Shown here piece after piece: positions 5,249-20,959 of a stretch of DNA of 64,000 nucleotides. Position numbers and translations under genes: made by a program. The stretch is from Cryobacterium glucosi (GTDB lineage Bacteria; Actinomycetota; Actinomycetes; Actinomycetales; Microbacteriaceae). The notes under the pieces are model-generated. The model did not search any database. It had not been told where the DNA came from and saw nothing but the letters and a program-made list of their open reading frames with translations. Location: positions 248,001 through 312,000 of the forward strand of contig NZ_SOFS01000012.1 in NCBI RefSeq assembly GCF_004402235.1. The letters are read 5' to 3'. The number at the start of each line of letters is the position of its first letter. The first letter of the stretch is position 1.

Positions 5249-6527
5249 CCAGACGACCGTTGCCGTGCGGATGTACAACGTTGGCTTTGGTGACTGCTTC
5301 CTGGTCACGATCACACGAGGTCTACAGGTGTGGCGGATGCTCGTCGATTGCGGTGTGCACAGTCAGGGCCGCGCGACGATCAACGGTGTCACCCGGGACA
5401 TTTCCGATGTGGTCCACACGGTCATCGCGGACCTCACAGCGGTTGCCGCTGCCGGCTCTCCCCCGCACCTCGACGTTGTCGTCGCCACCCACCACCACCA
5501 GGACCACATCAGCGGCTTCGCGGTCGACGAGTGGACCAGCGTCGATGTCGGCCAGGTGCTGGTCCCGTTCGTGGAGGACACGAGCGATCCGGCTGCCCAG
5601 GCGCTGCGCAATTCACTCGTGTCCACAGCGACCCAGATCCACGGTTTCATCGAGGCGAAGGCCCAGACGAACTCAGGGGATCTGCCGGCTCCGCTGGCAT
5701 TGGCCAGCGCCCTGGCAGCCAACTCGATGGGCAACGCGAAAGCAACCGACCGGCTGCTCAGCCGCAACGGCACCCAGTTCAAGAACACGCCGCCGGTCAT
5801 GTTCGTTCCCAACCGGGACCCCGCGAAGAACGTGATCGCCGTGCCCATCGAGGGGGTGAGCATCCACCTGCTCGGCCCGTCGCGCGATCCGAAGCAGCTC
5901 GCGTTGATGGACCCGCCGGTGTCAGCACAGTGGCTGCAACTCGATCCCGACCAGCACCCCGACGACGACGACGAAACACCGACCATCTTCGATCCGATCT
6001 ATGTAGTGGCGGACGAGGACGTCCAGTCGATCCCTTCGGAGCTGAGGGACGCGCGCGCCTCCCTGCGCCTGACCCAGCTCGGCACCGACGACGACGCGCT
6101 GCTCGACGCAGCGGCCGTTCTCGAACGCTCCGTCAACAACACGAGCGTGTACTTCGTGCTCGACGTGTCCGGGACGCGGTTGCTGTTCGTGGGCGACTCG
6201 CAGGAAGGCGCCTGGGAGCACGTGCTCGACGACCCCGTGTCGAAGGCTCTGGTCAGCAGTGTCGCGTTCTACAAGATCGGGCACCATGGATCGCACAACG
6301 CGACTCCGAAGCCGTTCGTTGAGTCCGTGCTCGGGCAGGGGGCCTATGCGATGCTGCCCTGGGGACTGGTCAAACAGTGGGAGAACACCATTCCCAAGGC
6401 AGAACTTCTCACGGCCCTGGCTCAACTCAACACGCATGTGGTTCGAGCGGATGCGCCAGTCGCCGCGCCACCGGCTGTAGTGGTGGACCCGGGACTGCTG
6501 TGGAGTCAGGTGACCTTCACGGTGTAG
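5241..6527 (+). CDS. MBL-fold (ComEC/Rec2-like) metallohydrolase
   Basis: A 428-residue soluble metallo-beta-lactamase-fold protein. The first metal motif THHHQDH is at residues 83-89 (His84, His86, Asp88, His89). A GDSQEGAWE segment near residue 317 and GHHGSHN near residue 347 match the later metal ligands of the ComEC/Rec2-type branch. The N-terminus VRMYNVGFGDCFLV is the typical first strand pair of that branch. No signal peptide or membrane channel is present, so this is a stand-alone hydrolase rather than a DNA uptake channel. Members hydrolyse phosphodiesters or similar bonds; the substrate here is unknown. It overlaps the peptidase stop by 8 bp and its 3' end overlaps the convergent DUF2235 gene by 11 bp. 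Confidence 0.8.
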   Translation: MPDQTTVAVRMYNVGFGDCFLVTITRGLQVWRMLVDCGVHSQGRATINGVTRDISDVVHTVIADLTAVAAAGSPPHLDVVVATHHHQDHISGFAVDEWTSVDVGQVLVPFVEDTSDPAAQALRNSLVSTATQIHGFIEAKAQTNSGDLPAPLALASALAANSMGNAKATDRLLSRNGTQFKNTPPVMFVPNRDPAKNVIAVPIEGVSIHLLGPSRDPKQLALMDPPVSAQWLQLDPDQHPDDDDETPTIFDPIYVVADEDVQSIPSELRDARASLRLTQLGTDDDALLDAAAVLERSVNNTSVYFVLDVSGTRLLFVGDSQEGAWEHVLDDPVSKALVSSVAFYKIGHHGSHNATPKPFVESVLGQGAYAMLPWGLVKQWENTIPKAELLTALAQLNTHVVRADAPVAAPPAVVVDPGLLWSQVTFTV

Positions 6528-7737
6528 TGGGTCGGGTCGCTACGGCCGCTGGCGCGGGATGCTCCGTAGGCGCCGGAGCGGACTCGATCGGATTGGCGGC
6601 TCGGACCGGGACGGGCGCGAGGTCGATCCAATTCGGGTCAGCCCACTGCACGCCCGATGGGATCCGCGTTTCATAGAGGCCCGGGGCCTCCATACGGGGC
6701 CTGACGCTGGAGTGGATGAACGCGTTCGCCGGGATCGGGCGTGTTCGGTCGATAAAGATCTTCCACATCCAGCTATTCGCGTGCACGGTTCCGTCGGCGC
6801 TCAGCTCAGTGACGGTGCACGCTTTCGCGTACGGACCAGGTTCAACGAGCATTCCCTCCTCAAGGGCGCCCTCGACGATCCACTTGAGGGTGACGTTCGA
6901 GAGGCGCGGGTCGTCCTCGAAAGTGCCCCCGACATCCGTGTGCACACCCGCGAACCAGACCTCCTCAAGCTGGGACTGAGGGGACGGCGTGACGAGGTAT
7001 TCGCGGAAGGGTCGGCGCTTCTCATCGATCGACACGGCATGACGCACGCGCACATCATTGTCCAGCTTGCGCGTATAGGGCCATTTGATATCCCATTTGA
7101 GGAATCCAGCCGCCTTCACCGTGTCGAATGCGCCGAGGTACGCGACGCGCACGGTACTCCGCCCGTTGACTTTGCGGGCGAAGTTCTCGGAGAACTCGTC
7201 GATTCCTGCCCAGAATGCCCTCGACGCGACAGTCTGCGGGGTGCGAGGTGCGGCGTTCGTGGGGGTCTTCCCGCTCGGGGTGGTGACGCCGTCCTTTCCC
7301 TGGGGACGGTCATCCTTGCTGCGCTTGGTGAACTCGGAAACTGCATAGGGCACGAGGTTCTCCGAGCCGGCATGAAGAAGGCCGATCGTGCGCAGCATGC
7401 CTGATAGAGCGCGGGCGGTGTATGCGCCGCGGCTGAATCCGAACACGAAGATGCGGTCACCCGGATTCCACTCCCGCATCAACCATGTGTATGCCTCGCC
7501 CAGGTTCTGGCGAAGCCCATTGCCGAACGCAAGCCCGCCGACGCGCGAGAGCCAACGCGCGAGCGGACCCCACGAGGCCGACGACGAGAATGTGCCCACC
7601 CCCGGGTCGTAGTAGGCGATCTGTTTCGTCGGGTCGGTGAGGTCGAGCATCCCGAACACCTTGATGACGTTCGAGTCACCCCGTGCTCGCGGCTGGGCGC
7701 CCGTGCCATCAAGACAGATGACCAGATTCCTAGCCAT
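6517..7737 (-). CDS. DUF2235 alpha/beta hydrolase (Tle1-like lipase family)
   Basis: A 406-residue protein of the DUF2235 family. The N-terminus NLVICLDGTGAQ, the segment YYDPGVGTF and the nucleophile elbow GFSRGAYTAR (residues 100-109, Ser102) are diagnostic. Characterised relatives include type VI secretion phospholipases (Tle1) and fungal or bacterial hydrolases of unknown role. No signal peptide, VgrG or other secretion partner is nearby, so an intracellular role is as likely as an exported one. The ATG at 7735-7737 has a strong GGGAGGAA ribosome site. It faces the peptidase/MBL pair, with the 3' ends overlapping, which suggests they travel together. The 180 bases 7738-7917 upstream hold no gene I can support. 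Confidence 0.8.
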   Translation of the reverse strand: MARNLVICLDGTGAQPRARGDSNVIKVFGMLDLTDPTKQIAYYDPGVGTFSSSASWGPLARWLSRVGGLAFGNGLRQNLGEAYTWLMREWNPGDRIFVFGFSRGAYTARALSGMLRTIGLLHAGSENLVPYAVSEFTKRSKDDRPQGKDGVTTPSGKTPTNAAPRTPQTVASRAFWAGIDEFSENFARKVNGRSTVRVAYLGAFDTVKAAGFLKWDIKWPYTRKLDNDVRVRHAVSIDEKRRPFREYLVTPSPQSQLEEVWFAGVHTDVGGTFEDDPRLSNVTLKWIVEGALEEGMLVEPGPYAKACTVTELSADGTVHANSWMWKIFIDRTRPIPANAFIHSSVRPRMEAPGLYETRIPSGVQWADPNWIDLAPVPVRAANPIESAPAPTEHPAPAAVATRPTTP

Positions 7738-7917: not shown

Positions 7918-8640
7918 TCAACGGAACCTGACCGGCTCTGACCGTCGTGCAGCGAGCCAGAGCACGTCGCGGCCAAAGGATTCGAGGAGCAGGACGAGCG
8001 CCAGCGCGACGAGCAGGGCATCAAGACCGGGGAGAAGCCGTGTCGCGGCCGTCGCCAGGGCGATGCCCTGCACGGCCGTGACGACCTTCCGCCAATACCG
8101 GGATGGCAGCTGCCGGCGGAGCCAGGGAAAGATCCACCCGGCGATGACGAAGAGGTACCGCATGGTGCCGATCGCGAGGACCCAGGTCCCCAGGTTCTTC
8201 GACACATAAACGCTCAGCACGAGCAACAGGAACGCATCGACTTCCATGTCGAACCGCGCGCCCAGCTCGCTCGTGGAGTTCGTGTGCCGCGCGACCCAGC
8301 CGTCGACGGCGTCCAGGACGAGGGCAGGCACGACGAGGGCCATCATCAGGGTGGTGGGAACCGGCGCGACGAACGATGCAACGACGATCCCGCTGATCAT
8401 CCCGACGAGCGTCGACCGCACGGCCGTGACACGGTTCGCTGGTCCAAATCGTGTCGAGTTTCTGCTCCGTAGCCCGCGCACGAGCAGGGCATTCGACACG
8501 ACCAGGTAGCTGAGGGCCACCAGCCAGCCGACAGCGGGCGCCCACGACCGGTCCCAGGACCCAGCGGCAAGGCCGAGGACCGTCGCGGCCGCCGTCCCCG
8601 CGATTGCTGAGGAAATCGGCGCGAATTGAACTCTGCGCAT
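7918..8640 (-). CDS. CDP-alcohol phosphatidyltransferase family membrane protein
   Basis: A 240-residue integral membrane enzyme with about six hydrophobic segments. The full CDP-alcohol phosphotransferase signature D-x2-D-G-x2-A-R-x8-G-x3-D-x3-D is present with Asp110, Asp113, Gly127, Asp131 and Asp135. Such enzymes join a CDP-linked lipid or alcohol to a second alcohol (glycerol phosphate, inositol phosphate or others); the acceptor cannot be told. It starts 76 bp from the divergent seven-gene operon and probably shares its control region. A lipid head-group function would fit the membrane and glycosyl functions of that operon. Confidence 0.85.
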   Translation of the reverse strand: MRRVQFAPISSAIAGTAAATVLGLAAGSWDRSWAPAVGWLVALSYLVVSNALLVRGLRSRNSTRFGPANRVTAVRSTLVGMISGIVVASFVAPVPTTLMMALVVPALVLDAVDGWVARHTNSTSELGARFDMEVDAFLLLVLSVYVSKNLGTWVLAIGTMRYLFVIAGWIFPWLRRQLPSRYWRKVVTAVQGIALATAATRLLPGLDALLVALALVLLLESFGRDVLWLAARRSEPVRFR

Positions 8641-8715: not shown

Positions 8716-9696
8716 GTGGTCGAGTCATCCGCATTCTGGGTGGAGTCGCCCCACGTCGGGGTGCTCCGCCGGGAAACCGTGCCGAAACCCGGCGATGGAG
8801 AGGTGCTCGTAAGGACCCTCTACACCGGGGTCAGCCGAGGCACGGAGATTTCGGTATTCAGCGGACACGTCCCGCAGAGCGAGTTCGACCGGATGCGTGC
8901 CCCCCACCAGGACGGTGAGCTTCCGGGCCCGGTCAAATACGGTTATCTGAATGTCGGCGTCGTAGACCAGGGACCCGAATCCCTCGAGGGCCGGATCGTG
9001 TTCACGCTGTTCCCCCACCAGTCAGCGTTCGTCGTCCCCGCCGATGCGGTCGTGCCGGTTCCCGCCGGGATACCGGCACGTCGCGCCGTGCTCACGGGCG
9101 CGGTCGAAACAGCCATCAATGTGCTCTGGGATGCTCGTCCACTTATCGGCGACCGGGTGTCCGTCATCGGCGCCGGCATGATCGGGTGTTGTGTCGCACG
9201 ACTGCTCCGCGGCATCCCCGGGGTCGAGGTCACTCTGATCGACGTCAACCCGGCGCGCCAGGTGGTTGCGGATCGACTGGGCGTGGGCTTCGCCGACGTC
9301 GCGCGGCCGCCGGGTGACCGGGACATCGTAATCAACACGAGCGGTTCGGCCGCCGGGTTGCAGCTCGCCCTCGAAACAGTGGTCACCGACGGTGAGGTCC
9401 TCGAGGCGAGCTGGTACGGCGATCGCCCGGTCACGCTCATGCTGGGCGCCGACTTCCACTCGCGACGATTGACGATCCGGTCGAGCCAGGTCGGAGCGGT
9501 GGCGGCGAGTCGCCGGGGAAACCGGTCGAGGCGTGAACGCCTGGAGCTGGCCATGCGGCTCCTGCACGACCCGGCCTTCGATGCCGTGCTGACCGGTGAG
9601 TCCTCGTGGCGCGACCTTCCCGAGGTGATGGCGAGCCTCGCCCGGGGGGCTCCGGATGTCCTGTGTCACACCATCACGTGGGGAGAACCAAAATGA
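8716..9696 (+). CDS. MDR-superfamily dehydrogenase without catalytic zinc ligands
   Basis: A 326-residue medium-chain dehydrogenase/reductase. The GroES-like N-terminal half carries YTGVSRGTE, like the SRGTE segment of BchC-type enzymes, and lacks the usual Cys and GHE zinc ligands of alcohol dehydrogenases. The Rossmann motif VIGAGMIG begins at about residue 150. It should be a NAD(P)-dependent oxidoreductase; the substrate is unknown. I chose GTG 8716 because GGGAGG lies at 8706-8711; upstream in-frame codons look noncoding. It is the first gene of the operon and its stop overlaps the next start (ATGA). Confidence 0.8.
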   Translation: MVESSAFWVESPHVGVLRRETVPKPGDGEVLVRTLYTGVSRGTEISVFSGHVPQSEFDRMRAPHQDGELPGPVKYGYLNVGVVDQGPESLEGRIVFTLFPHQSAFVVPADAVVPVPAGIPARRAVLTGAVETAINVLWDARPLIGDRVSVIGAGMIGCCVARLLRGIPGVEVTLIDVNPARQVVADRLGVGFADVARPPGDRDIVINTSGSAAGLQLALETVVTDGEVLEASWYGDRPVTLMLGADFHSRRLTIRSSQVGAVAASRRGNRSRRERLELAMRLLHDPAFDAVLTGESSWRDLPEVMASLARGAPDVLCHTITWGEPK

Positions 9697-10091
9697 CGTA
9701 CACGGTCACGGTCCGCGATCATCTGATGATCGCCCACAGTCTCACGGGCGACGCCTTCGGTGCTGCCCAGCGACTCCACGGAGCCACATTCATCGTCGAC
9801 GCGACCGTCGCGTCGGGCGGCCTCGACGCCAACGGTGTGGTCGTGGACATCGGCAGACTGGCGAGCGCGCTCGCGGAGATCACGGGGGCGCTCACGTATC
9901 GCAACCTCGACGAAGACCCGCGGTTCCGGGGCCGGAACACAACCACCGAAGTGCTCTGCACAGCGATCGCCGATCTGCTGGCCGAAGGGGTGAAGGCAGG
10001 GTCACTCGGCCCCGTTCAGCAGCTGGACTCCATCACGGTCACGCTTCATGAGTCACACATCGCGTGGGCAAGCTACACGAGGACGGCATGA
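9693..10091 (+). CDS. 6-pyruvoyl-tetrahydropterin synthase/QueD homologue with altered active site
   Basis: A 132-residue protein of the T-fold PTPS/QueD family, which act on dihydroneopterin triphosphate. It keeps His15 (IAHSL), His29 (LHGA), Asp52 in VVDIGRL, the NLDEDPRF and NTTTEVLC segments, and the late Glu in VTLHES. The canonical zinc motif HGH is HGA, and the catalytic Cys four residues before it is Ala25. It may therefore do different chemistry or serve as a binding protein. The ATG at 9693 overlaps the preceding stop by 4 bp, and its own stop overlaps the glycosyltransferase start the same way. The family call is sound; activity is open. Confidence 0.78.
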   Translation: MTYTVTVRDHLMIAHSLTGDAFGAAQRLHGATFIVDATVASGGLDANGVVVDIGRLASALAEITGALTYRNLDEDPRFRGRNTTTEVLCTAIADLLAEGVKAGSLGPVQQLDSITVTLHESHIAWASYTRTA

Positions 10092-11128
10092 GCATGTCCG
10101 CCGAACGTCGGGTCTCCTTCTTCGTGCCCGCAGCGATCGACGACCCCGCCAGGGTCAGCGGTGGCAACGTCTACGACCAGCACGTTCGCGACGGGCTCCG
10201 ACGCAGCGGCTGGGAGGTGCACATGGTTCCGATCCCGCCGGATGACGGCATGCTCACGGGCCTGACCCTGTCGAGGCTGCCGGACGGTGCCCTCGCCCTG
10301 GTCGACGGCCTGATCGCCGCACGCGAATCGGTGGCATTGGGCCTCCAGGCCACCCGGCTCCGGTTGATCGTCCTCGCGCACATGGTCACGGCCGACAGCC
10401 GTGAACGAGACGCATTCCGGGCTGCGAAACGCATCATCGCCACGAGCGGATGGACCCGGTCTGAGATCATCACGCGTCACTCCCACGCGGCCCACGACGT
10501 CATCGTCGCTTACCCGGGAACGGATCCCGCCGCCACGACGAACGCTTCACCAGCAGGCGACCGGCTGCTCTGCATTGGCGTGGTTGCCCCGCACAAGGGC
10601 CAGGACCTGCTGATCGGCGCCTTGGCGCACCTCACCGACGTTGACGGCTGGACGTGCACCTTCGTCGGATCACTCGACGGTGCACCAGGTTTTGTCGACG
10701 AGCTGACGCGCGCCCGTCACCGGGCACGCCTCACCGCCAGGGCACCGTTCAGGGGTGCGCTGGTCGGAACACGGTTGGACAGCGCATACGCCAGGACCGA
10801 CCTTGTCGTCGTGCCATCCCGGTACGAGAGCTTCGGAATGGTCGTCGCAGAGGCCCAGGCCCGCGGCATCCCCGTCCTGGCCTCCCGTATCGGTGGCATT
10901 CCGGAAGCGCTCTCGAACGAGTCGGCGGGGATCCTCGTCGCGCCGGAGGATCCGCGGGCGCTCGAGGTCGCGCTGCGCCACTGGTTAGCCAGTCCGGCAC
11001 AGCGGTCGCAGCTCAAGGCAGCCGCCGTGGCGGCCAGCAGACGGGCCAGGCCGTGGAGTGCGACGGTAGCCGCCATTGCGTCAACGCTCATCGAGGTGGC
11101 ATTCCGTGAAACGGCGGTTTCCCCATGA
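10088..11128 (+). CDS. GT4-type glycosyltransferase
   Basis: A 346-residue GT-B glycosyltransferase, cytoplasmic or membrane-associated. The N-terminal half has the loop SGGNVYDQHV, and the C-terminal half has APHKGQDLLIGAL and VPSRYESFGMVVAEAQARG with the E-x7-E pattern of retaining GT4 enzymes, followed by GGIPEAL. It would transfer a sugar from a nucleotide donor to an unknown acceptor. Given its neighbours, the acceptor may be a pterin-like product or a lipid. It begins at an ATGA overlap with the PTPS-like gene and ends in an ATGA overlap with the methyltransferase. Confidence 0.85.
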   Translation: MSMSAERRVSFFVPAAIDDPARVSGGNVYDQHVRDGLRRSGWEVHMVPIPPDDGMLTGLTLSRLPDGALALVDGLIAARESVALGLQATRLRLIVLAHMVTADSRERDAFRAAKRIIATSGWTRSEIITRHSHAAHDVIVAYPGTDPAATTNASPAGDRLLCIGVVAPHKGQDLLIGALAHLTDVDGWTCTFVGSLDGAPGFVDELTRARHRARLTARAPFRGALVGTRLDSAYARTDLVVVPSRYESFGMVVAEAQARGIPVLASRIGGIPEALSNESAGILVAPEDPRALEVALRHWLASPAQRSQLKAAAVAASRRARPWSATVAAIASTLIEVAFRETAVSP

Positions 11129-11946
11129 CCGGCATTCCCCTGGTCAGTCCGGACTGGCTGGCGCTGCGTGAACCGGAGGACGCAGCTGCGCGCTCACGCG
11201 ATCTTGCGCTCACCGCCGCCGCCAAAATCCCGGATGGACCGGTGATCGTTCACGATCTCGGCAGCGGGACCGGTTCGATGATGCGCTGGCTCGCTCCCCT
11301 CCTCCCCGGTCCGCAGACCTGGATCCTGCACGACTGGAATCCGGACCTGATCGAATCGGCCATCGGCAGGATGCGTCCGCGGGACGGGAACTCGGCAGCG
11401 ATCTCCGTTCTCGCCCGACCGGGGAACCTCGCCGACCTGCGGGCATCCGACCTTGAGGGTGCGTCCCTCGTGACGGCATCCGCCCTGCTCGATGTGCTGA
11501 CCTCCCACGAGACCCACACCATCGTGGACGCCTGCGTTGACGCCAGCTGCCCCGCTCTTCTCACCCTCAGCGTGACAGGCCGGGTTCGCCTGAGCCCACG
11601 GGACCACCTCGACGCGGCATTCGAGGAAGCCTTCAACGCACATCAACTTCGACTGGCAGACAATCGCAGGCAGCTCGGTCCGTATGGCGCGCCGATTGCG
11701 CGCGGACTGTTCACACAGGCCGGCTGGGAGGTGCGCCAGACCGCCACGGAATGGCTGCTCGACCACAGCAGGCACCGCCTGCTCCTCGACTGGTTCTGCG
11801 GATGGGTGGACGCCGCCGTCGAGCAGGATCCCCGGCTGGGCGCTGAGGCCGCGCGCTTCCGGCGACTTCGGATGTCCCAGATCCGACGCGGGGAGCTGGC
11901 AGCGCGCATCCGCCACGTCGACCTGCTGGCCTGGCCGCGCGGATGA
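11125..11946 (+). CDS. Class I SAM-dependent methyltransferase
   Basis: A 273-residue protein with a Rossmann-type methyltransferase core: motif I HDLGSGTGS at about residues 43-51, then a second acidic strand LHDWNPD that would hold the ribose of SAM, and a LVTASALLDVL motif later. No membrane segment. The substrate is not recognisable; position in the operon suggests modification of the same product made by the neighbouring oxidoreductases and glycosyltransferase. It starts at an ATGA overlap and ends in an ATGA overlap with the flippase-like gene. Confidence 0.8.
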   Translation: MTGIPLVSPDWLALREPEDAAARSRDLALTAAAKIPDGPVIVHDLGSGTGSMMRWLAPLLPGPQTWILHDWNPDLIESAIGRMRPRDGNSAAISVLARPGNLADLRASDLEGASLVTASALLDVLTSHETHTIVDACVDASCPALLTLSVTGRVRLSPRDHLDAAFEEAFNAHQLRLADNRRQLGPYGAPIARGLFTQAGWEVRQTATEWLLDHSRHRLLLDWFCGWVDAAVEQDPRLGAEAARFRRLRMSQIRRGELAARIRHVDLLAWPRG

Positions 11947-12932
11947 CCCACCGCAGCCGAGCCCTGATTCGCCAGGTCTTGCGGTCGGCGGGATTCCGCC
12001 GTGCCATCCGTCCGGTCCTCGGCGCCGGCGTCCTCATCAGCGTCATCGGCCAGGTGGGAACGGGCCCGTTCCTGCAGGGCATCGTCAGCCTGGACGGACC
12101 GACGATCGGCGCGGCGCTGCTTCTTTCGGCCGTTGCAACGGTGGCTGCTTCGTGGCGGTGGCAGCTCATCGCGACCCGCCTGGGAGTTCCGCTCCGCTTG
12201 TCGACCGCCATCGGAATGTACTACCAGTCCCAGTTCTTGAACACGATCCTTCCGGGCGGAATCGTCGGGGACATCCGCCGGGCAGTCGACAGCGGCCCGC
12301 GCGGCACAAGCGTCAGGCCCGCCGCGCGCGCTGTCGCGGTCGAGCGCCTGTCGGGGCAGGTCGTGCAGCTCGGCCTGGCGCTGATAGTGCTGGCGTGCTT
12401 CGGAACCGAGTTCGAGGGCTACCTGCTGCCGGCGCTCGGGATCGGATTCGGCGTTGTCGTCGCCGGGCTTGCCGCGACGATAGCGCTGAGCACACGCGCC
12501 CGTGCGGTGCTGTTCAGCGAGGCGCGCGAACTCCGGGCCGGCCTCGGATCACTGCGCACCTCCCTGCAGGTCGCGATCGCGTCGGTCATCGTCGTCGGCT
12601 GCCATGTCACGACTCTCACGCTCGCAACTACGGCCGTTGGCGCGAGGATGCCGGGGCTGCGGATGCTCACTCTCGCTCTCGTCATCCTGCTCGGCGCCTC
12701 GATCCCGCTGAACATCGGCGGCTGGGGACCTCGCGAGGGCATCGCCGGCTGCGCATTCGCAGTTGCGGGATTGGGCGCGCCGGCGGGGGTGGCGGCATCC
12801 ACCCTGTTCGGCGTGCTCACGATGCTCTCGATCACGCCGGGCGCGCTCGTCGCCGCCGCTGTCGCCGTTCGTCTGCGCCGACCGGAGTCCATTCTCGTTC
12901 CACACGCTCTCGACCAAGAGGAGACATCGTGA
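11943..12932 (+). CDS. UPF0104/LPG-synthase-TM family flippase-like membrane protein
   Basis: A 329-residue polytopic membrane protein with about eight hydrophobic segments. The motifs QFLNTILPGGIVGD and NIGGWGPREG are typical of the UPF0104 / lysylphosphatidylglycerol synthase transmembrane family, which includes the flippase part of MprF and many proteins linked to glycosyltransferases. It could move a glycolipid or the operon's product across the membrane. The C-terminal synthase domain of MprF is absent. It begins at an ATGA overlap and ends in a GTGA overlap with the reductase. Confidence 0.82.
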   Translation: MTHRSRALIRQVLRSAGFRRAIRPVLGAGVLISVIGQVGTGPFLQGIVSLDGPTIGAALLLSAVATVAASWRWQLIATRLGVPLRLSTAIGMYYQSQFLNTILPGGIVGDIRRAVDSGPRGTSVRPAARAVAVERLSGQVVQLGLALIVLACFGTEFEGYLLPALGIGFGVVVAGLAATIALSTRARAVLFSEARELRAGLGSLRTSLQVAIASVIVVGCHVTTLTLATTAVGARMPGLRMLTLALVILLGASIPLNIGGWGPREGIAGCAFAVAGLGAPAGVAASTLFGVLTMLSITPGALVAAAVAVRLRRPESILVPHALDQEETS

Positions 12933-13675
12933 CACTCACGCCATACGTCACCCTGAGCTGCGCCATCTCGCTCGACGGGTATCTCGACACAGCGCGTCCA
13001 CCGCGGCTCACCCTGTCGAATGCAGCCGACCTCGATCGTGTTGACGCCGTGCGGGCAAGGAACGACGCAATCCTGGTCGGTGCACGAACCGTGCGAGCCG
13101 ACAACCCGCGATTGCTGGTGAGGAGCGCTGCCCGCCAGAACCGTCGAGAGGCAGCCGGCCTGCCGCGCTCACCGTGGAAGGTCACGGTGACGGCAACGGG
13201 CGACCTCGATCCGAACGCGGCATTCTTCACATCCGGCGACACCACACGGCTCGTGTACTGCCCCGCACCGCTGGCCGGCGGCCTCCGGCGACGACTCGGA
13301 CCCGCCGCCGTTGTCGTCGGTCTGGACGGTGGAGTGAGAATGGCCGACCTCGTCGCCGACCTGGGTCAGCGTGGGATCAGCACGCTCATGGTCGAGGGAG
13401 GAGCGATAGTCCACACGCAGTTTCTGGCGGCCGATCTTGTCGACGAGCTCCAGCTATGCGTGGCACCGTTCTTTGTCGGCTCAGCCGGGGGCGCCCGCTT
13501 CGTCGGCGACGCCCTGTTTCCCTGGACGAGTGACCGGCGGGCTCACCTCGCAGAAGCCAGGCCGATCGGTGACATGGTTCTGATGCGCTACGCGCTCTCA
13601 GATCGGTTCACCGAGCACGACGCGGAAGCCCACCCGGCTGTGATCACGGCGCCTCTCATGGCGGGAATGCGGTGA
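12929..13675 (+). CDS. RibD C-terminal-type (dihydrofolate reductase family) reductase
   Basis: A 248-residue stand-alone reductase of the RibD_C family. SCAISLDGYL at residues 8-17, VRARNDAILVGARTVRADNP, and MVEGGAIVHTQFL (NADPH phosphate loop) are the family hallmarks. Relatives reduce the ribosyl chain of a riboflavin or deazaflavin precursor; no deaminase domain is present and no other riboflavin gene is nearby. With the PTPS-like gene it suggests pteridine or pyrimidine-type chemistry. The GTG start is forced by the GTGA overlap; its stop forms another GTGA overlap. Confidence 0.85.
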   Translation: MTLTPYVTLSCAISLDGYLDTARPPRLTLSNAADLDRVDAVRARNDAILVGARTVRADNPRLLVRSAARQNRREAAGLPRSPWKVTVTATGDLDPNAAFFTSGDTTRLVYCPAPLAGGLRRRLGPAAVVVGLDGGVRMADLVADLGQRGISTLMVEGGAIVHTQFLAADLVDELQLCVAPFFVGSAGGARFVGDALFPWTSDRRAHLAEARPIGDMVLMRYALSDRFTEHDAEAHPAVITAPLMAGMR

Positions 13676-15294
13676 GCGCCAACCGTCCGCCGATGGTTCG
13701 ACGACGGGTGGGTTTGGCCGCCGCCCTCGTCCTGGCATTCGTCTCTGTCCTCGCGCCTGGATGGATCAGCACGGGGTCGCTGCTGGCCCTGGTGCGCGTA
13801 CCCCTGGAATCGGTCGTCGTCGTCCTGATCCTGGCGGGACTTCGGCGTCCGTTCGCGCGCCGGACCGTCTCGATCCTCGCCGCCATGGTCTTCGTCGCAA
13901 CCATCGCTCTCGCGGCTCTCGATCGGGGGTTCAGAAGCACGGTCGGTCAGCCGTTCAATGTGGTGACCGGCTGGCCGGAGGTGCGGGACGCCTACGGTGT
14001 CCTCCGGGATTCTGCCGGCCCGGTCGCATCGGTCACACTGCTCATCCTGATCCCGATATCGTTTTCGGCTGTCACTCTCATTCTCGCTGGTGCATTCCTT
14101 CGGATCACGGACGCAGTGGGTCGGCACCGCCGCCCCGCAGCGATCGGTGGCTTCGTGATCGCAGCGAGTTGGATCGCGCTCGGATTCAGCGGCGCCCAGG
14201 TCGTACCCGGCGAATCCGTCGCCGCTGCGGACACGATCCACACGGTCGTCGTGAAAGCCGAGCAGGTCAGGATCGCGGATGCCGACCAGGCCAGATTCGC
14301 ACGCGCAAGCGCAACCGACGAATACGCCCGATTGCCGGCATCCTCTCTCCTCACCGGGCTGAAGGGAAAGGACGTCATCGTCGCGTTCATCGAAAGCTAT
14401 GGCCAGGTCGCCGTCCAGGACACGTTCTTCTCCGTCGGCGTCGACGACGTCCTGCGCAGGGGAAACACGGAGCTCGCGGCCAAGGGCTATTCGGAACGCA
14501 GCGCCTTTCTCACTTCGCCGACGTTTGGCGGAATCAGTTGGCTCGCCCACGCCACCCTGCAGACCGGGCTCTGGATTGATTCACAACAGAAATACGATCA
14601 GGTGACCGCTGGAAACCGGCTCACCCTCAGCAGGGCCTTCGCTGAGGCGGGCTGGCAAACCATCAGCGACGTGCCATCGGACAGCGGGCCGTGGCCGATC
14701 GGCCGATCGTTCTATCATTTCGGGACAGAACTCACCTCCCAGAACGTCGGATATCAGGGTCCTCCGTTCAGCTATGCCCTGATACCCGACCAGTACACCT
14801 GGGAATACTTCCAGAAGCACGAACTGGCCGGACCACACCGTCCGCTGATGGCGGAGATCGACCTGGTGTCCTCGCACACCCCGTGGACTCCCCTGCCCCA
14901 CGAGGTGCCGTGGACCGCTGTCGGGGACGGCTCACTCTACGACCCCCAGCCGGACCAGGGACTGTCTCCGAGCGAGGTCTGGCAGAACCCGCATCTGGTG
15001 CAACAGCTCTACGGACAATCCGTTGAATACTCGCTCAGCACGCTCATCTCGTTCCTCACCACCTACGACAACCCGAACCTCGTCCTCGTCGTTCTCGGCG
15101 ACCACCAACCGGCGACCGTGGTCAGTGGCGAAGGCGCGAACCACACCGTGCCGATCAGCATCATCTCCCGGGATCCCGAGGTCATGAGTCGGATCGCTTC
15201 CTGGCAGTGGCAACCGGGAATTCTGCCGGATCGCGCGGCACCCGAATGGCGGATGGACGAGTTCCGTGACCGGTTTTTCGCGGCATTTGAGTGA
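13672..15294 (+). CDS. Membrane-anchored sulfatase/LtaS-like hydrolase or transferase
   Basis: A 540-residue protein with about five membrane segments in residues 12-175 and a large domain after residue 205, probably outside the cell. That domain is of the alkaline phosphatase/sulfatase fold: the metal-binding strand VIVAFIESYG near residue 240, a SPTFGGISWLAH segment with a candidate nucleophile near residue 285, and LGDHQP near residue 475. LtaS, which polymerises phosphoglycerol, has the same layout. It could transfer or remove a phospho group on a surface lipid. It is the last gene of the operon, reached by a GTGA overlap; no terminator is obvious in the 93 bases after it. Confidence 0.75.
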   Translation: MSANRPPMVRRRVGLAAALVLAFVSVLAPGWISTGSLLALVRVPLESVVVVLILAGLRRPFARRTVSILAAMVFVATIALAALDRGFRSTVGQPFNVVTGWPEVRDAYGVLRDSAGPVASVTLLILIPISFSAVTLILAGAFLRITDAVGRHRRPAAIGGFVIAASWIALGFSGAQVVPGESVAAADTIHTVVVKAEQVRIADADQARFARASATDEYARLPASSLLTGLKGKDVIVAFIESYGQVAVQDTFFSVGVDDVLRRGNTELAAKGYSERSAFLTSPTFGGISWLAHATLQTGLWIDSQQKYDQVTAGNRLTLSRAFAEAGWQTISDVPSDSGPWPIGRSFYHFGTELTSQNVGYQGPPFSYALIPDQYTWEYFQKHELAGPHRPLMAEIDLVSSHTPWTPLPHEVPWTAVGDGSLYDPQPDQGLSPSEVWQNPHLVQQLYGQSVEYSLSTLISFLTTYDNPNLVLVVLGDHQPATVVSGEGANHTVPISIISRDPEVMSRIASWQWQPGILPDRAAPEWRMDEFRDRFFAAFE

Positions 15295-15375
15295 CGACCT
15301 GTCCTCAATAGTGTGCTGGTCAGAGGAAGTTTCCACACACCTGAGCCATGCTCACAGAATGTCGGTGGTCGGTCG

Positions 15376-15381
15376 TAACGT
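15376..15381 (+). promoter_or_regulatory. Candidate -10 box for leaderless DUF222-HNH transcription
   Basis: TAACGT followed by 6 nt and the ATG at 15388, the same geometry as upstream of zwf and the GST gene. The 6 nt are GGGGGC, so a weak ribosome site is also possible. Confidence 0.35.
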
Positions 15382-15387
15382 GGGGGC

Positions 15388-17145
15388 ATGACCAACCTCC
15401 CGGAGTCGCCCGCCTCACCCGACAAGCCGCACGGCGACCGGGAGCATGACGACCCGGTGCTCGGCGGCGGCGTGCTCGGCGGCGGAGTGCTCGGCGGGTT
15501 GCGCTCGATGGCAAATGTCGTCACCGGGTTGGGCGGTTCGTCCGCCGCCGTCGACACGCTCAGTGACGAGGCGGTGCTCGAGGGACACGCACTGATCGCG
15601 AAAGCCCGGCGGGCCCTCGACACCCAGGCAGCATGGTTCGCAGCGACCCTGGCCCGCAGGTCCCGGCCCGACCTCGGCGGGAAGGGTCTTGCGGCCCGGA
15701 AGGGGTTCCGCTCCCCGGAGGACCTGCTGCAGTCGATCTCCGGGTCGAGCAAGGGCGATGCGGTCAAGCTCCTCGGGGTGGGCCGGCTGGTGGCCGAGAT
15801 CGACGCCGCTGAGAAGGCCGCCCGCGACGCCGCCGAGGCCCAGAAGCTGCTCGACGGCACCCCGCCCCTCGACGGGGCCGCTCCAGATCTGCCGCCGGTC
15901 GACCAGCCGGTTCCGTCGGCAGCGGTACCACCGTGGCACGCCCCGATCGGCCGCGCCCTCGCCGAGGGCTGGCTCAGCGTCGAGAAGGCGGACTCGCTCC
16001 GGAAAGGGCTCGGCGACCTGGACCGGGCGATCACCCCGGAGAAACTCGCGACGGCCCTGGCCCGGCTCCTCGCCGAGGCGCGCACGGTGAACGCTGACCA
16101 GTTGTTCAAGCGCGCCCGGCGGGTGCGGGACGTGCTCGATGAGGCCGGCATCGCCGCCCGCGAGAAGGCCGTCTACGACGACCGGTCCCTGCGGTTCTGG
16201 CGACTCCACACGGGGCAGGTGCGCCTGGTCGGCCTGTTCGCCCCCGAAGACGGCGAATACCTGATGAGTACCTACGACGCCATCACCAGCCCCCGCCGGG
16301 GCGGGGTCCGCTTTGTGAACAAGGAGCAGGCAGCGTGGGCGAAGCGCGTGCAGGACGACCCGCGCACCACCGAACAGCTCACCGCGGACGCATTCCTCGC
16401 CCTGACCAAACTCGGCGTCAAAGCCGACCCCAAGCGCATCGCCGGAGGACGAAGCCCCGCCGTCCGCATGATCACCATCCGCCCCAGGAGCACCACACCG
16501 ACCAGCACCACACCGACGGGGACCGCATCCACCGGCACCGCACTCATCGGCGTCGCACCGCACGGGACCGCGCCGGTCCGGACCGCGTCGATCGAGACCG
16601 CAGCCGGTAGGACTGAACCGAGCTGGCCGACTCCCGACGCGGTGACCGGACCCACGTCCGATGCCGAGGCAGGCCGCCGAGACGAGGCACCCGCGCTCCA
16701 GCCGGGCGTGATCGAGGGAACCGCGGTTCCGGTCTCCACCGAGACTCTAGAACGGAACCGGTGCGACACCGGACTCCTCGACGTCACCTTCGACGACCAC
16801 GGCAGCGGCGTCGACCTCGGCCGCGAACAACGCACCTTCAGCCCCGCCCAACGCGACGCCCTCGCCCTTCGCGACGGCGGCTGCATGTGGCCCGGCTGCG
16901 ACCGACCACCCTCCTGGACCGAAACCCACCACATCCAGCACTGGAAAGACGACACCGGCGCAACCAACCTCGCCGACGGGATCCTGCTCTGCCGGGCCGA
17001 CCACCTCAGACTCCACAACGAACACTGGCGCATCACACGCGACGACACCGGCCACTACTGGCTCACACCACCCCCGGGACTCGACCCCGAACAGAGACCC
17101 ATCCTCCTTACCAGCAAAAGCCCGATCCTCCGGGACGACGACTGA
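15388..17145 (+). CDS. DUF222 (13E12-type) HNH endonuclease
   Basis: A 585-residue protein of the family that is expanded in many actinobacterial genomes. The helical DUF222 region covers roughly residues 55-350. A low-complexity linker of eight degenerate pentapeptides spans about 368-407. The HNH nuclease domain is near the C-terminus: CMWPGCDRP, the ETHHIQHW strand-loop with the catalytic His, and LCRADHLRLHN. It may be a mobile-element or DNA-processing nuclease; no function is established for most members. It has its own putative promoter and is flanked downstream by a 15-bp repeat tract, so it may mark a recombination-prone site. Confidence 0.88.
   Translation: MTNLPESPASPDKPHGDREHDDPVLGGGVLGGGVLGGLRSMANVVTGLGGSSAAVDTLSDEAVLEGHALIAKARRALDTQAAWFAATLARRSRPDLGGKGLAARKGFRSPEDLLQSISGSSKGDAVKLLGVGRLVAEIDAAEKAARDAAEAQKLLDGTPPLDGAAPDLPPVDQPVPSAAVPPWHAPIGRALAEGWLSVEKADSLRKGLGDLDRAITPEKLATALARLLAEARTVNADQLFKRARRVRDVLDEAGIAAREKAVYDDRSLRFWRLHTGQVRLVGLFAPEDGEYLMSTYDAITSPRRGGVRFVNKEQAAWAKRVQDDPRTTEQLTADAFLALTKLGVKADPKRIAGGRSPAVRMITIRPRSTTPTSTTPTGTASTGTALIGVAPHGTAPVRTASIETAAGRTEPSWPTPDAVTGPTSDAEAGRRDEAPALQPGVIEGTAVPVSTETLERNRCDTGLLDVTFDDHGSGVDLGREQRTFSPAQRDALALRDGGCMWPGCDRPPSWTETHHIQHWKDDTGATNLADGILLCRADHLRLHNEHWRITRDDTGHYWLTPPPGLDPEQRPILLTSKSPILRDDD
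16489..16608 (+). repeat. Degenerate 15-bp coding repeat, eight units
   Basis: Eight in-frame 15-bp units encode pentapeptides (STTPT, STTPT, GTAST, GTALI, GVAPH, GTAPV, RTASI, ETAAG) in the linker between the DUF222 and HNH parts. Confidence 0.85.
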
Positions 17146-17362: not shown

Positions 17363-18652
17363 CTACTGGTGCGGGACCTCGGCGGTGTCCCGCAGCGGGG
17401 CGAACATCCGGTCGAAGACGTTGCGCCGGTCGAACTGCATCGCATACTCGCGCGCACGGTCAGCCCAGTCCCTGCGCTCCTCCGCCGTGGTCTCGAGAAT
17501 TGCGCGGTCGATCGCCTCGGCGATCGCCTGCGGGTCTTCGACGGGGATGATCAGGGCGTGGTCGCCCACGGCTTCGCCGATGCCACCGGTGACGGTGGTG
17601 ATCACGGGACCGCCGCCGGCGAGCATCTTCTCGGCCAGTGCGATGCCGAACGTCTCCACGAACTCCGGCCGCGGCTTGCTCGGAAGCACGAAGGCGGCGC
17701 ATCCGGCCATCAGGTACGGCTTCTCCGCATCGCCGACGTCGTCGAGGAACCGGATGCGATCGGCGAGCGGCGAGGCCGCGGCGATGGCCCGGAGTGCCTC
17801 GGACTGCGGGCCGCGGCCTGCGATCACGAGGATCTTGTCCTGGCTGGCTGCGCTGATCGCGTAACCGGCGATGAGATCGTCGACGCCCTTCGCCGCGGTG
17901 AGCCGGGAGAGGAACAGGATGTACCCGTCCCGTTCGAGGCCGCGGGCGGTGAGAACGTCGTCCGTCACGCTCTCGTCGAGGTGCAGGTAGGAGTCTGCGT
18001 CGATCGCCGGGTAGGAGATCGTGATCCTTTCGCGGCACTGGGCCGCGTAGCGGGTGCCGTGGTGCTGGTCGACGAGTTCGGCCTCGGTGATGATGAGCTG
18101 CCGGGTGTACTCGGACACTGCGACGCAATAATCCTGGCTGAGATAGCTCGACAGGATGTGCGCAGCGGCGCCGAATCGTCCCTCGTTGACCGCGGTGCGC
18201 ACGACATTCGTGACGTCCGAACCCACGGCTTCCGCGATCGTGGTCACGTTGACGGGCAGTCCGGTCCCCCAGGCAGCGCGCACGGCGTCGGAGACCGCGA
18301 GCGTGTGCGGCGTGAGGTAGAGCGAGAGGCAGACCGTGGGCACGCCATCGGTGAAGAGCTCGATCAGCCGGCCGGTGACCCCGGCGAGGTGGCGCCCGTC
18401 GAGCACCTTGTAGTCCCCGACCGGTGCGGGGCGGTCGACGAAGATCCCGGGACTGTACGGCAGCACGGAATCGAGCGGTTTGAGCGGCAGTCCGGACGCC
18501 TGGAGCTTGTCGATCGGCCACGTCACGATGCGCACCTCGTCGAAGCCGCGCTCGAGCGCGGTCTCAGCGAGATTACGCGCTTCGACGGAGTGGCCGCAGA
18601 TGACCGGATCGGCCCGGACCACGATGACAAGCCGGTTCTCAACAGAATTCAT
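17363..18652 (-). CDS. GT4-type glycosyltransferase
   Basis: A 429-residue GT-B glycosyltransferase. The N-terminus LVIVVRADPVICGHSVEARN is the donor-side loop; the C-terminal half has LSRLTAAKGVDDLI, AGRGPQSEAL and EFVETFGIALAEKM, the E-x7-E-like signature of GT4, followed by TGGIGEAVG. The donor and acceptor are unknown. Its start overlaps the stop of the GH92 mannosidase by 4 bp, so the two are co-translated and probably belong to one glycan pathway, with mannose as a likely sugar. No membrane segment or signal peptide is present. Confidence 0.87.
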   Translation of the reverse strand: MNSVENRLVIVVRADPVICGHSVEARNLAETALERGFDEVRIVTWPIDKLQASGLPLKPLDSVLPYSPGIFVDRPAPVGDYKVLDGRHLAGVTGRLIELFTDGVPTVCLSLYLTPHTLAVSDAVRAAWGTGLPVNVTTIAEAVGSDVTNVVRTAVNEGRFGAAAHILSSYLSQDYCVAVSEYTRQLIITEAELVDQHHGTRYAAQCRERITISYPAIDADSYLHLDESVTDDVLTARGLERDGYILFLSRLTAAKGVDDLIAGYAISAASQDKILVIAGRGPQSEALRAIAAASPLADRIRFLDDVGDAEKPYLMAGCAAFVLPSKPRPEFVETFGIALAEKMLAGGGPVITTVTGGIGEAVGDHALIIPVEDPQAIAEAIDRAILETTAEERRDWADRAREYAMQFDRRNVFDRMFAPLRDTAEVPHQ

Positions 18653-20886
18653 GGTGTCTCTCCCGTGGATCGTGACGCTCGTGATGGTGACAAGGATGAT
18701 GGCGTCGAGGGTGGGAAGTCCGTCGTTCCCCAGCTGCCCGGCTCAGGCCCCAACTCCACGACGAGTTCGCCACCGGCGTGGAATTCATTTCCACTGAGCC
18801 AGGTGCGCCCGAGCGGTTCCCCGTTGAATTCCATAGCCTGCACATACTGTACGGGTCCGCCCGGTGCCGGTTCAATGAATCCACGAGTACGGATGGTGAA
18901 CGAGTGCTTACCGACAGAAAACGTCGACTTCTCGAAGGAGGGTGCGTTGACGAGGAAGATGTTCTGGCCGGCCACCGGGAACAGCCCGAGTGACGCCCAG
19001 ACGAACCAGGAACTGAGCCCGCCGGAGTCGTCGTTTCCTGGCAGCCCTCCCCGGCCGGTGCCGAACTGCTGATGCACGATGTTGTGCACGATCTCGGCCG
19101 TGCGGTCCGGCCGGCCCACGTAATGGTACGACCACGGCGCTTCCATGTCGGGCTCGTTGTTGAGTCCCTCGAATCGGCCGAGTCGGTAGCCGGCGATGAC
19201 TTCCTCCGGGCCGGAGCCCCGGACGAGCTGCTTCACCGGCTCGGCGCCGTAGCCGAAGAACTCGTCGAGCTGGGCGATGAACCGCTCGGCCCCTCCGCTC
19301 AGGGCGATGCGGGCATCCATGTCCTGCACCAGCCGGAACGAGTAGTTGTGCCGGGTGCCCTCGTAGTACGTGGAGTCCTTCAGGAGACCGGTGACCGGGT
19401 CGTACGCATTCACCCAGCGTTCAGCGAGGGCGACGAACTGCTCGACGAGGGCCCTGTCGCCGACGTGCCCGGCGACCTTCGCGGTGCACCAGTATCCGAA
19501 AGCCAGGTCGAGGGTGTGGCTGATCGGATGCGCCTCCCCGTGAACCAGGAACTCCTCGCCGTAGGTGCGGCGCAGGTCGTCGGACATGTGCACGAGGGCC
19601 CAGTCCCAGTCGATGCCGGGGAGGCCGAGCTGGCACAGGTCGGCGAGGAAGGTATGGGCGAGAGCACTCGCCTGCCGTGAGAAACGGTCGCTTCCGCGGG
19701 CCATCCGGTACCCGATGGGGAAGTTGCCCTCCTCCTCCGAGATGGTGATCATCGCGTTCGCGAGCTCGACCGCTCGTTCCGGCATCAGCGCAGTGATCAG
19801 GGGAAGCTGGGTGCGGTAGATGTCCCACATGGTGCTGATGTCGAAGACGAACGGTCCGTCCGTCGGCCAGAACGGGCTCTCCGAGGGGGCCAGGCAGGGC
19901 TTGATCAGGGCGTGGTAGAGCGCCGTCGAGAACACCGTCTGGCGAGCGGCAGACGGTGTCCTGACCGTGATGCCCTTGAGCTTTTTGCGCCAGACCTTCT
20001 GGGTCCGCTCCCGGCGGGGCGTGAACTGCGCCGGTCCGGTTCCGCAATCCGCCTCGAGGTTGCGCTTGGCCTGGTCGACGCCCCGCAGGGAGAATCCGAT
20101 CCGCAGCTCGATCGTCTGGCCCTCCTCGCTCGGACCGGCCCACATCAGGCCGAACGGGCGCAAGGTCGTCGGGCGGATGTGGTCGAAGTCGAGCCGGGTC
20201 CCACCCGGCATCAGGCGTCTGTCGTACCAGAGCATCTGACGCCACTGGGGGTTGTCGCACTCGATGTACACCGAAAGAGGGGCGCCCTCCACCACGATCT
20301 CCCCGCTGGCGACTCCGGGCTCGAGGCACTCGAGATGGGCCCGCACCGGGATCGTAGCGCCGTACGGAATCGACAGTCCACCGTGCGAGAAGTCGATGAC
20401 CACCCGCGCCTTGGAATGTGCCGGAAAGGTATACCGGTGCACCGCACTCTTCGGCCCGACGGTGAGCTCTGCGGTGATGCCGGAGTCGAGGGTTCCTGAA
20501 TACCAGCCCGGCTCGGCTTGTTCGTCGGTCAGCTCCCAGGTCCGACCGAGCACGTCGAGTGGTTCGATCATCGGCGTGACGCGGAAGTAGTTGTAGTACT
20601 TTCGGATGGCGCCGGTACCGGACTGCTGGAAGTGCGCGAATCCCGAAGCGAGGTGACGCTCGTGCAGGAGGGGCGGGATGCCCTCGAGAGAGAGGTCGTA
20701 CCGGCCGTACCCTGTCGGATAGGCCCCCGAATACGCGCAGGCCGATACCATCCCGAGCGGGTAGGTAGCGCCCGGGTGCGTGTTCCCGATTTGAGGCTTC
20801 GGCCACCACCAGGTGGCGGCGAGGCCGGTCTGGGGAGGAAGGTCCGTAACCTCGGTGCCGATAAACGGGTCAACGCGACCGATCAT
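18649..20886 (-). CDS. GH92-family alpha-mannosidase
   Basis: A 745-residue glycoside hydrolase of family GH92, calcium-dependent exo-alpha-mannosidases. Family marks are VDPFIGTE at the N-terminus, GNTHPGATYPLGMV near residue 33, and GNDDSGGLSSWFVWASLGLFP near the C-terminus. There is no signal peptide: I chose the ATG at 20884-20886 because AGGAG sits just upstream, and the longer in-frame start (15 extra residues) adds no export signal either. It thus looks cytoplasmic, whereas many characterised GH92 enzymes are exported. It is the first gene of a pair with a GT4 glycosyltransferase. Confidence 0.88.
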   Translation of the reverse strand: MIGRVDPFIGTEVTDLPPQTGLAATWWWPKPQIGNTHPGATYPLGMVSACAYSGAYPTGYGRYDLSLEGIPPLLHERHLASGFAHFQQSGTGAIRKYYNYFRVTPMIEPLDVLGRTWELTDEQAEPGWYSGTLDSGITAELTVGPKSAVHRYTFPAHSKARVVIDFSHGGLSIPYGATIPVRAHLECLEPGVASGEIVVEGAPLSVYIECDNPQWRQMLWYDRRLMPGGTRLDFDHIRPTTLRPFGLMWAGPSEEGQTIELRIGFSLRGVDQAKRNLEADCGTGPAQFTPRRERTQKVWRKKLKGITVRTPSAARQTVFSTALYHALIKPCLAPSESPFWPTDGPFVFDISTMWDIYRTQLPLITALMPERAVELANAMITISEEEGNFPIGYRMARGSDRFSRQASALAHTFLADLCQLGLPGIDWDWALVHMSDDLRRTYGEEFLVHGEAHPISHTLDLAFGYWCTAKVAGHVGDRALVEQFVALAERWVNAYDPVTGLLKDSTYYEGTRHNYSFRLVQDMDARIALSGGAERFIAQLDEFFGYGAEPVKQLVRGSGPEEVIAGYRLGRFEGLNNEPDMEAPWSYHYVGRPDRTAEIVHNIVHQQFGTGRGGLPGNDDSGGLSSWFVWASLGLFPVAGQNIFLVNAPSFEKSTFSVGKHSFTIRTRGFIEPAPGGPVQYVQAMEFNGEPLGRTWLSGNEFHAGGELVVELGPEPGSWGTTDFPPSTPSSLSPSRASRSTGETP

Positions 20887-20959
20887 GCAGTATCTCCTCT
20901 GAATGCCTTCCTCGGAGAGTAGCCGCTGCACTGCGTCGAAGATGACGCGACTCCGTTAC

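Follow-up and report, generated by a model that had tools for sequence, protein, structure and literature searches.

PTPS-IV is an orphan subfamily of COG0720 marked by an FGPAQ signature, and its gene neighbourhood with GTP cyclohydrolase II (GCHII, PF00925) and a RibD C-terminal domain (RibD_C, PF01872) is already in print in one section of a published account (PMC5445326). A locus of this kind is described here from Cryobacterium glucosi, in a window of 64,000 nucleotides (contig NZ_SOFS01000012.1, positions 248,001 to 312,000; all positions below are counted from the first letter of the window). It comprises seven overlapping genes at 8716 to 15294 and a divergent eighth. The GCHII and RibD_C neighbours are common to the published account and to this family of loci, while the section in question names neither a CDP-alcohol phosphatidyltransferase, a medium-chain dehydrogenase/reductase (MDR), a GT4 glycosyltransferase, a methyltransferase, a UPF0104 protein, a creatininase nor an LtaS-like protein, and does not name the linkage between the GCHII tyrosine and the creatininase reported below. 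We consider it probable that the locus belongs to a conserved pathway fed by early intermediates of riboflavin synthesis. The wider statement, that the eight genes make up most of a conserved actinobacterial pathway branching off early riboflavin synthesis and ending in a lipid-linked product, is about evenly balanced between right and wrong, and the full model, in which the product is also attached to lipid and transferred outside the membrane, is more tentative still.

Three further systems lie close to this locus. Cyanobacteria and green sulfur bacteria make glycosylated pterins by way of GTP cyclohydrolase I and a catalytically competent PTPS; the pairing of pterin-type chemistry with a glycosyltransferase resembles the present locus, but here the linked cyclohydrolase is of type II and the PTPS lacks its catalytic residues. 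The GCHII paralogue SCO6655 of Streptomyces coelicolor reportedly carries a Met where the deformylating Tyr would stand and stops at the formylamino intermediate (Spoonamore 2006). Met is likewise present in all ten Streptomyces loci with a GCHII gene; in contrast, the window cluster has no GCHII gene, and the only GCHII found in its genome is a single RibBA on another contig that keeps the Tyr. In riboflavin synthesis, the creatininase-family formamidase BrbF converts the formylamino intermediate into the diamino compound, as described in part of PMC9478397. The cluster creatininase belongs by sequence to the same superfamily as the BrbF and ArfB formamidases and would act on the same formylamino-pyrimidine.

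The sequence-only reading of this DNA had described seven genes joined by six consecutive 4-bp ATGA or GTGA overlaps, and the open reading frame (ORF) list and inspection of the sequence bore this out (ATGA at 9693, 10088, 11125 and 11943; GTGA at 12929 and 13672). It had also treated the genes as one unit and named a non-conserved order as the result that would speak against this; the order proved to be conserved across Actinobacteria. Its extent of seven genes was too narrow. The seven are conserved together, but a CDP-alcohol phosphatidyltransferase gene on the opposite strand, whose start lies 75 bases upstream of the MDR start (8640 against 8716), is found in 49 of 54 long relative loci and is therefore taken as the eighth member.

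Conservation was assessed in two samples. A first search, across 60 genomes of relatives with the window genome among them, found the PTPS in 10, the window genome included, and MDR, PTPS and GT4 stood side by side in all 10 (9/9 besides the own genome; 59 others searched). The cluster is patchy, the PTPS being found in 2 of 36 congeners, and the PTPS of Cryobacterium breve is 95% identical to that of the window. A scan of a one-genome-per-species collection then gave at least 582 stretches encoding PTPS relatives, from which the best-matching 80 were used as loci, so that near relatives are over-represented. In the 54 loci that span 19 kb or more, MDR, PTPS and GT4 were each present in 54, UPF0104 in 52, the phosphatidyltransferase in 49, the methyltransferase in 48, GCHII in 45, RibD in 43, the LtaS-like gene in 28 and creatininase in 21. 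GCHII and creatininase, which the sequence-only reading had suggested looking for beside these genes, thus do join the cluster in relatives. In one locus (L101) the MDR gene stands apart from the rest. The 4-bp overlaps recur among the 80 loci, at the PTPS-GT4 junction in 41 and the GT4-methyltransferase junction in 46 (automatic starts). Nonsynonymous divergence (pN) was lower than synonymous divergence (pS) in every one of 23 gene-by-gene comparisons with three related loci, two of the C. breve ORFs being of abnormal length. A chance or antisense artefact was ruled out by the conserved gene set and by pN below pS. In the C. breve locus, the GT4 and LtaS-like matches at 10300-15400 are fragmented and ORF lengths are abnormal, which suggests frameshifts or sequencing errors.

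The PTPS homologue (9693..10091, forward strand; PF01242, 78.5 bits, cut-off 22.4) is, by its sequence, a member of PTPS-IV. A profile built from ten members retrieved PDB 3d7j (SCO6650) as its top match (E 1e-60), an entry titled as an uncharacterized protein; the structure paper for SCO6650 is said to report no zinc and no PTPS activity. Alignment to the putative PTPS 2g64 placed Ala at the catalytic Cys, Ala at the third zinc His and Thr-Tyr at the Asp-His pair. In an alignment of 84 rows including the window protein, the Cys and the third zinc His were both replaced by Ala in all 84, the catalytic His by Tyr in 83, and the catalytic Asp place held T, N, S, A or H in 83. The window protein thus lacks the catalytic Cys, the Asp-His pair and the full set of three zinc His that PTPS and QueD enzymes require. 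On the other hand, H15, H29, E86 and E120 were kept in 84/84 rows, D52 and D73 were invariant and Y69 nearly so. The signature takes the form FGxAQ in 83 of the 84 rows and FGPAQ in 79; the window protein has FGAAQ, one letter off. No demonstrated PTPS-IV reaction was found in the open-licence literature, outside which most subscription papers fall.

One link to early riboflavin chemistry comes from the cyclohydrolase. GCHII was present in 59 of the 80 loci. When the GCHII of the Streptomyces locus L078 was aligned to the Escherichia coli enzyme (2bz0), its Met fell on Tyr105, and across the 59 loci this place held Tyr in 37, Met in 12, His in nine and Gln in one. A creatininase-family gene accompanied the cyclohydrolase in 22/22 loci without the Tyr and in 0/37 loci with it. 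One locus (L052) has the creatininase with no GCHII in view, and 20 further loci have neither gene, many of them being short. On a tree of MDR and PTPS (76 of the 80 loci, 55 of these with a GCHII state), the loss of the Tyr and the creatininase gene each change once. This single event is consistent with a functional trade and does not prove one. The window genome fits this picture without a creatininase, because its only GCHII, the RibBA, keeps the Tyr and would need none. In three Streptomyces-type loci only (L078, L090 and L097), CbtA-type and histidine-phosphatase genes lie beyond the creatininase, adjoining the cluster.

The reductase (12929..13675, forward; PF01872, 140.6 bits, cut-off 24.1) is a free-standing RibD_C protein. 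Pfam found no deaminase domain in it, so it does not classify as a riboflavin RibD, and it scored 110.3 bits against TIGR01508, the model for the archaeal and fungal type of diaminopyrimidinone reductase, for which the cut-off is 186.45. The genome holds a second RibD_C protein, the presumed riboflavin RibD, near the RibBA on contig C36. The Lys of the TLKxAxSLDG motif has a functional role in RibD reductases; its place was taken by Ser, Gln or Asn in 55/55 cluster RibDs and by Lys in three presumed canonical RibDs. Twelve creatininase-bearing loci had no RibD nearby. Nine of these twelve genomes were searched (L083, L085 and L095 were left out), and all nine carried a cluster-type RibD elsewhere, with 218-356 bits to the cluster model and Ser at the Lys place; two presumed riboflavin RibDs scored 85-99 bits with the same model. 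A further locus, L070, keeps the Tyr in its GCHII and has no RibD in view.

The same co-occurrence was observed at the scale of the phylum. Among 396 genomes, a cluster-type RibD (E ≤1e-40) was present in 9 of the 10 with a strong PTPS-IV match (E ≤1e-30) and in 5 of the 386 others; 39 of the 396 had a PTPS match at E ≤1e-15, of which the 29 weaker ones were not counted as strong, and up to 10 and 7 candidates per genome were scored in these large searches. Three of the nine (G000, G086 and G260) carry the RibD inside the cluster; the tally therefore measures presence per genome rather than linkage. Among the 60 relatives, at E ≤1e-100, RibD was found in 5 of the 10 PTPS genomes and in none of the 50 others; of the remaining five, two have a Streptomyces-type RibD in the locus, one has a short locus and in two none was seen.

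The three enzymes that surround the PTPS gene are named with differing firmness. The names of the MDR protein, the methyltransferase and the last protein of the operon rest on weak family matches, which for the MDR protein include a BchC match below its cut-off, and for the other two also on predicted folds. The MDR-type dehydrogenase (8716..9696, forward) is BchC-like (NCBIfam BchC, 38.5 bits, cut-off 291), and its Pfam ADH_zinc_N match is likewise below cut-off. The segments S40-R-G-T-E44 and G76-Y77-L78 recur in 81 to 83 of 83 rows, and S40 and Y77 occupy, in 83/83, what would by motif be the usual zinc-ligand places, so that the protein does not classify as a zinc-dependent alcohol dehydrogenase. 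The GT4 glycosyltransferase (10088..11128, forward; PF00534, 97 bits) has an EX7E motif at residue 247, which is claimed for the window protein alone because the strict motif fits only 5 of 77 relatives. The methyltransferase (11125..11946, forward) has a Pfam match below cut-off. Its AlphaFold2 model (pLDDT 95.7; best Foldseek match the methyltransferase 3mgg, E 1.8e-12) has the class I S-adenosylmethionine-dependent fold, as predicted, and D44, G46, G48 and G50 are invariant over 52 rows (the window and 51 of 63 relatives). In the Nocardiopsis clusters L054 (11373-14151) and L089 (11421-15458), some 3-4 kb of additional sequence separates the GT4 and methyltransferase genes, and one ORF of the L089 insert encodes a Methyltransf_19 protein.

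Enzymes of the LtaS and EptA kind use a phospholipid as donor of a phosphoalcohol, which they hand to an acceptor outside the membrane. The last gene of the operon (13672..15294, forward), which the sequence-only reading had called a sulfatase-like membrane enzyme, is membrane-anchored, and its predicted structure has the fold of these phosphoalcohol transferases, which corrects that reading. The AlphaFold2 model (pLDDT 87.3) matched LtaS, GacH and EptA with Z scores of 19-21 (LtaS 21.0; full-length EptA, membrane part included, 19.1 over 436 residues), and Foldseek matched LtaP at E 4.6e-8. E241, S289, H402, D477 and H478 are invariant in 34/34 rows (the window and 33 of 34 available relatives, the fragmented C. 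breve locus being left out). The fold is shared with LtaS, GacH and EptA, and E241, D477 and H478 are invariant here; it differs from them in its 9-15% identity, in having no Pfam match and in a Ser instead of a Thr at what is likely to be the nucleophile. A search of PDB sequences with this protein returned only two antibody chains (E 0.75 and above). The CDP-alcohol phosphatidyltransferase (7918..8640, reverse; PF01066, 51.3 bits, cut-off 22) belongs to its family by the motif DxxDGxxARx8GxxxDxxxD, which the window protein and 69 of 70 relatives keep intact. In five of the 37 loci with an LtaS-like domain (L035, L059, L061, L086 and L093) the two are encoded as one ORF, that of L086 reaching the contig end; L035 and L061 are for this reason outside the 49/54 count. 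The phosphatidyltransferase could make the phospholipid donor of the LtaS-like enzyme, and it is from this supply, together with LtaS/EptA-type chemistry, that we infer a lipid step. The UPF0104 / LPG_synthase_TM protein (11943..12932, forward; PF03706, 96.7 bits, cut-off 33.4) is flippase-like and scored 37 bits against TIGR00374, under the cut-off of 43.2.

From these parts we infer the following reactions, their order and a product. GTP would be opened to 2,5-diamino-6-ribosylamino-4(3H)-pyrimidinone 5'-phosphate, in the window genome by the RibBA and elsewhere by a dedicated cluster cyclohydrolase, which would be paired with a creatininase-family formamidase where the deformylating Tyr is missing. 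The free-standing RibD would reduce this compound to its ribityl form with no deamination. PTPS-IV, with its ring-anchoring Glu kept and PTPS catalysis lost, and the zinc-less MDR protein may then build or oxidise a ring or a side chain, after which the resulting compound would be glycosylated by the GT4 enzyme and methylated by the methyltransferase. The phosphatidyltransferase would join a phosphoalcohol to lipid, the UPF0104 protein would flip the lipid, and the LtaS/EptA-type enzyme would pass the phospho-X group to an acceptor outside the membrane. Taken to its end, this predicts a lipid with a GTP-derived, glycosylated and methylated ribityl-pyrimidine or pterin head group, which a repurposed PTPS would build and the transferase would set on an acceptor outside the membrane; we offer that product as speculation and think it unlikely. 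To our knowledge, such a class of envelope molecule has no known counterpart, and should the lipid step hold, head groups derived from GTP would bring a new type of chemistry to the envelope. Through its gene set, the linkage of cyclohydrolase and creatininase and the co-occurrence with RibD, PTPS-IV gains a pathway context that offers both a substrate to test and laboratory organisms, and since at least 582 stretches encode relatives, the product may be widespread in actinobacteria.

Several observations weigh against this pathway. The window cluster has no GCHII gene, and no creatininase match was found in the window genome. The creatininase of L078 scored 147.6 bits against MftE and 35 bits against ArfB, both below cut-off, and the match between cyclohydrolase state and creatininase, with one change each on the tree, counts as a single event. 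The loss of the RibD Lys is not diagnostic, because other RibD_C paralogues also lack it. Of the nine phylum genomes, six have the RibD away from PTPS-IV, on the same contig but more than 2.8 Mb off in four (L165, L170, L171 and L172) and on another contig in two, and five further genomes (L163, L164, L166, L167 and L173) have a cluster-like RibD with no strong PTPS-IV match; the cluster-type reductase may therefore have a second use. Two genomes (G041 and G059) have MDR, PTPS and GT4 side by side with no RibD in the stretch examined or at E ≤1e-20. At the far end of the scheme, the methyltransferase is absent from 6 of the 54 long loci, and transfer outside the membrane by the LtaS-like enzyme is not universal, since its gene is absent from 26.

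That last absence also speaks for a different ending, in which the same early chemistry would yield a soluble, secreted product (a pterin, pyrimidine or flavin analogue carrying sugar and methyl groups), with the membrane proteins serving export or another lipid. The constancy of GT4 (54/54) and of the methyltransferase (48/54), the patchy distribution among congeners, and the MFS transporter, acyltransferase-like and PHP-domain neighbours of L111 fit such a product. It is harder to reconcile with the phosphatidyltransferase (49/54) and UPF0104 (52/54), which are nearly as constant as PTPS-IV, or with the fusion of the former to the LtaS-like domain in five loci, and we regard it as possible but doubtful. 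The converse proposal keeps the envelope and discards the pterin: the phosphatidyltransferase, GT4, UPF0104 and LtaS-like genes are of the kinds used for teichoic acid-like polymers, so that this could be an envelope glycopolymer locus which riboflavin-type paralogues adjoin by chance or hitch-hiking. The constant centre of the loci is, however, PTPS-IV, MDR and GT4, which persist where envelope genes were not found (L018 and L019), and genomes carry a cluster-type RibD even when it is unlinked; we consider this proposal quite improbable.

PTPS-IV itself may also be read otherwise, as a protein that binds a pterin-like ligand or serves it as a scaffold without being an enzyme, here or in a neighbouring pathway. 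The universal replacement of the Cys and of one zinc His, and of the catalytic Asp and His in nearly all rows, with E86 and E120 kept throughout, agrees with ligand binding; but the retained H15 and H29, the invariant D52 and D73 and the near-invariant Y69 would rather resemble a repurposed site, and a scaffold seems improbable, if less so than the glycopolymer locus. By far the weakest candidate is a deazaflavin or F420-related cofactor pathway. Part of PMC5041015 ascribes PTPS-IV to archaeal F420, citing unpublished work. GCHII and RibD chemistry is common to deazaflavin precursors. The window genome (completeness 100) nevertheless gave no CofH match, CofG not having been searched, which makes F420 unlikely in this organism; a CofD-family protein was found by a search that also matches E. 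coli and other controls and is not specific. We hold a cofactor of this type to be very improbable. The sequence-only reading had assigned the PTPS homologue to pteridine or deazaflavin chemistry, of which the PTPS family membership stands, while the catalytic residues are lost and the deazaflavin branch has become unlikely. The glycosylated pteridine that it envisaged is one candidate product. It had further known no characterised pathway with this gene set. None was found in the open-licence literature either, although the neighbourhood of PTPS-IV with PF00925 and PF01872 is partly recorded in print; the parts are of known kinds, and neither the pathway nor its product was found in that literature.

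The core of the pathway may be older than its link to the envelope genes. Six of the weaker PTPS matches were inspected. Four of them (L110, L111, L112 and L115), from another family of the phylum, represent a deeper cluster in which RibD-MDR-PTPS-GT4 recur, the PTPS having an HGH motif, with all three zinc His, and no Cys; the other two (L113 and L114) encode a PTPS with both Cys and HGH and have no cluster. In L111 the GT4 is fused to a methyltransferase, and in L115 a methyltransferase ORF follows the GT4 gene (Pfam). In L111 a PHP-domain protein comes next, and on the other side lie FolB, an acyltransferase-like protein (below cut-off) and an MFS transporter. By their gene content, these deeper relatives suggest that a RibD-MDR-PTPS-GT4-methyltransferase core predates its association with the envelope genes.

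Upstream of the operon, at 6517-7737 on the reverse strand, lies the gene for a protein with the catalytic domain of a Tle1-like phospholipase (PF09994, 243 bits). A DUF222-HNH endonuclease gene follows immediately 3' of the operon (15388-17145, forward), and beyond it are tandem genes for a glycosyltransferase of type GT4 and a glycoside hydrolase of family GH92 (17363-20931, reverse). A reading of the locus as a defence system was dropped, as the single weak PADLOC match, to the MDR protein (E1-E2, 19.3 bits), was judged to be cofactor-fold noise.

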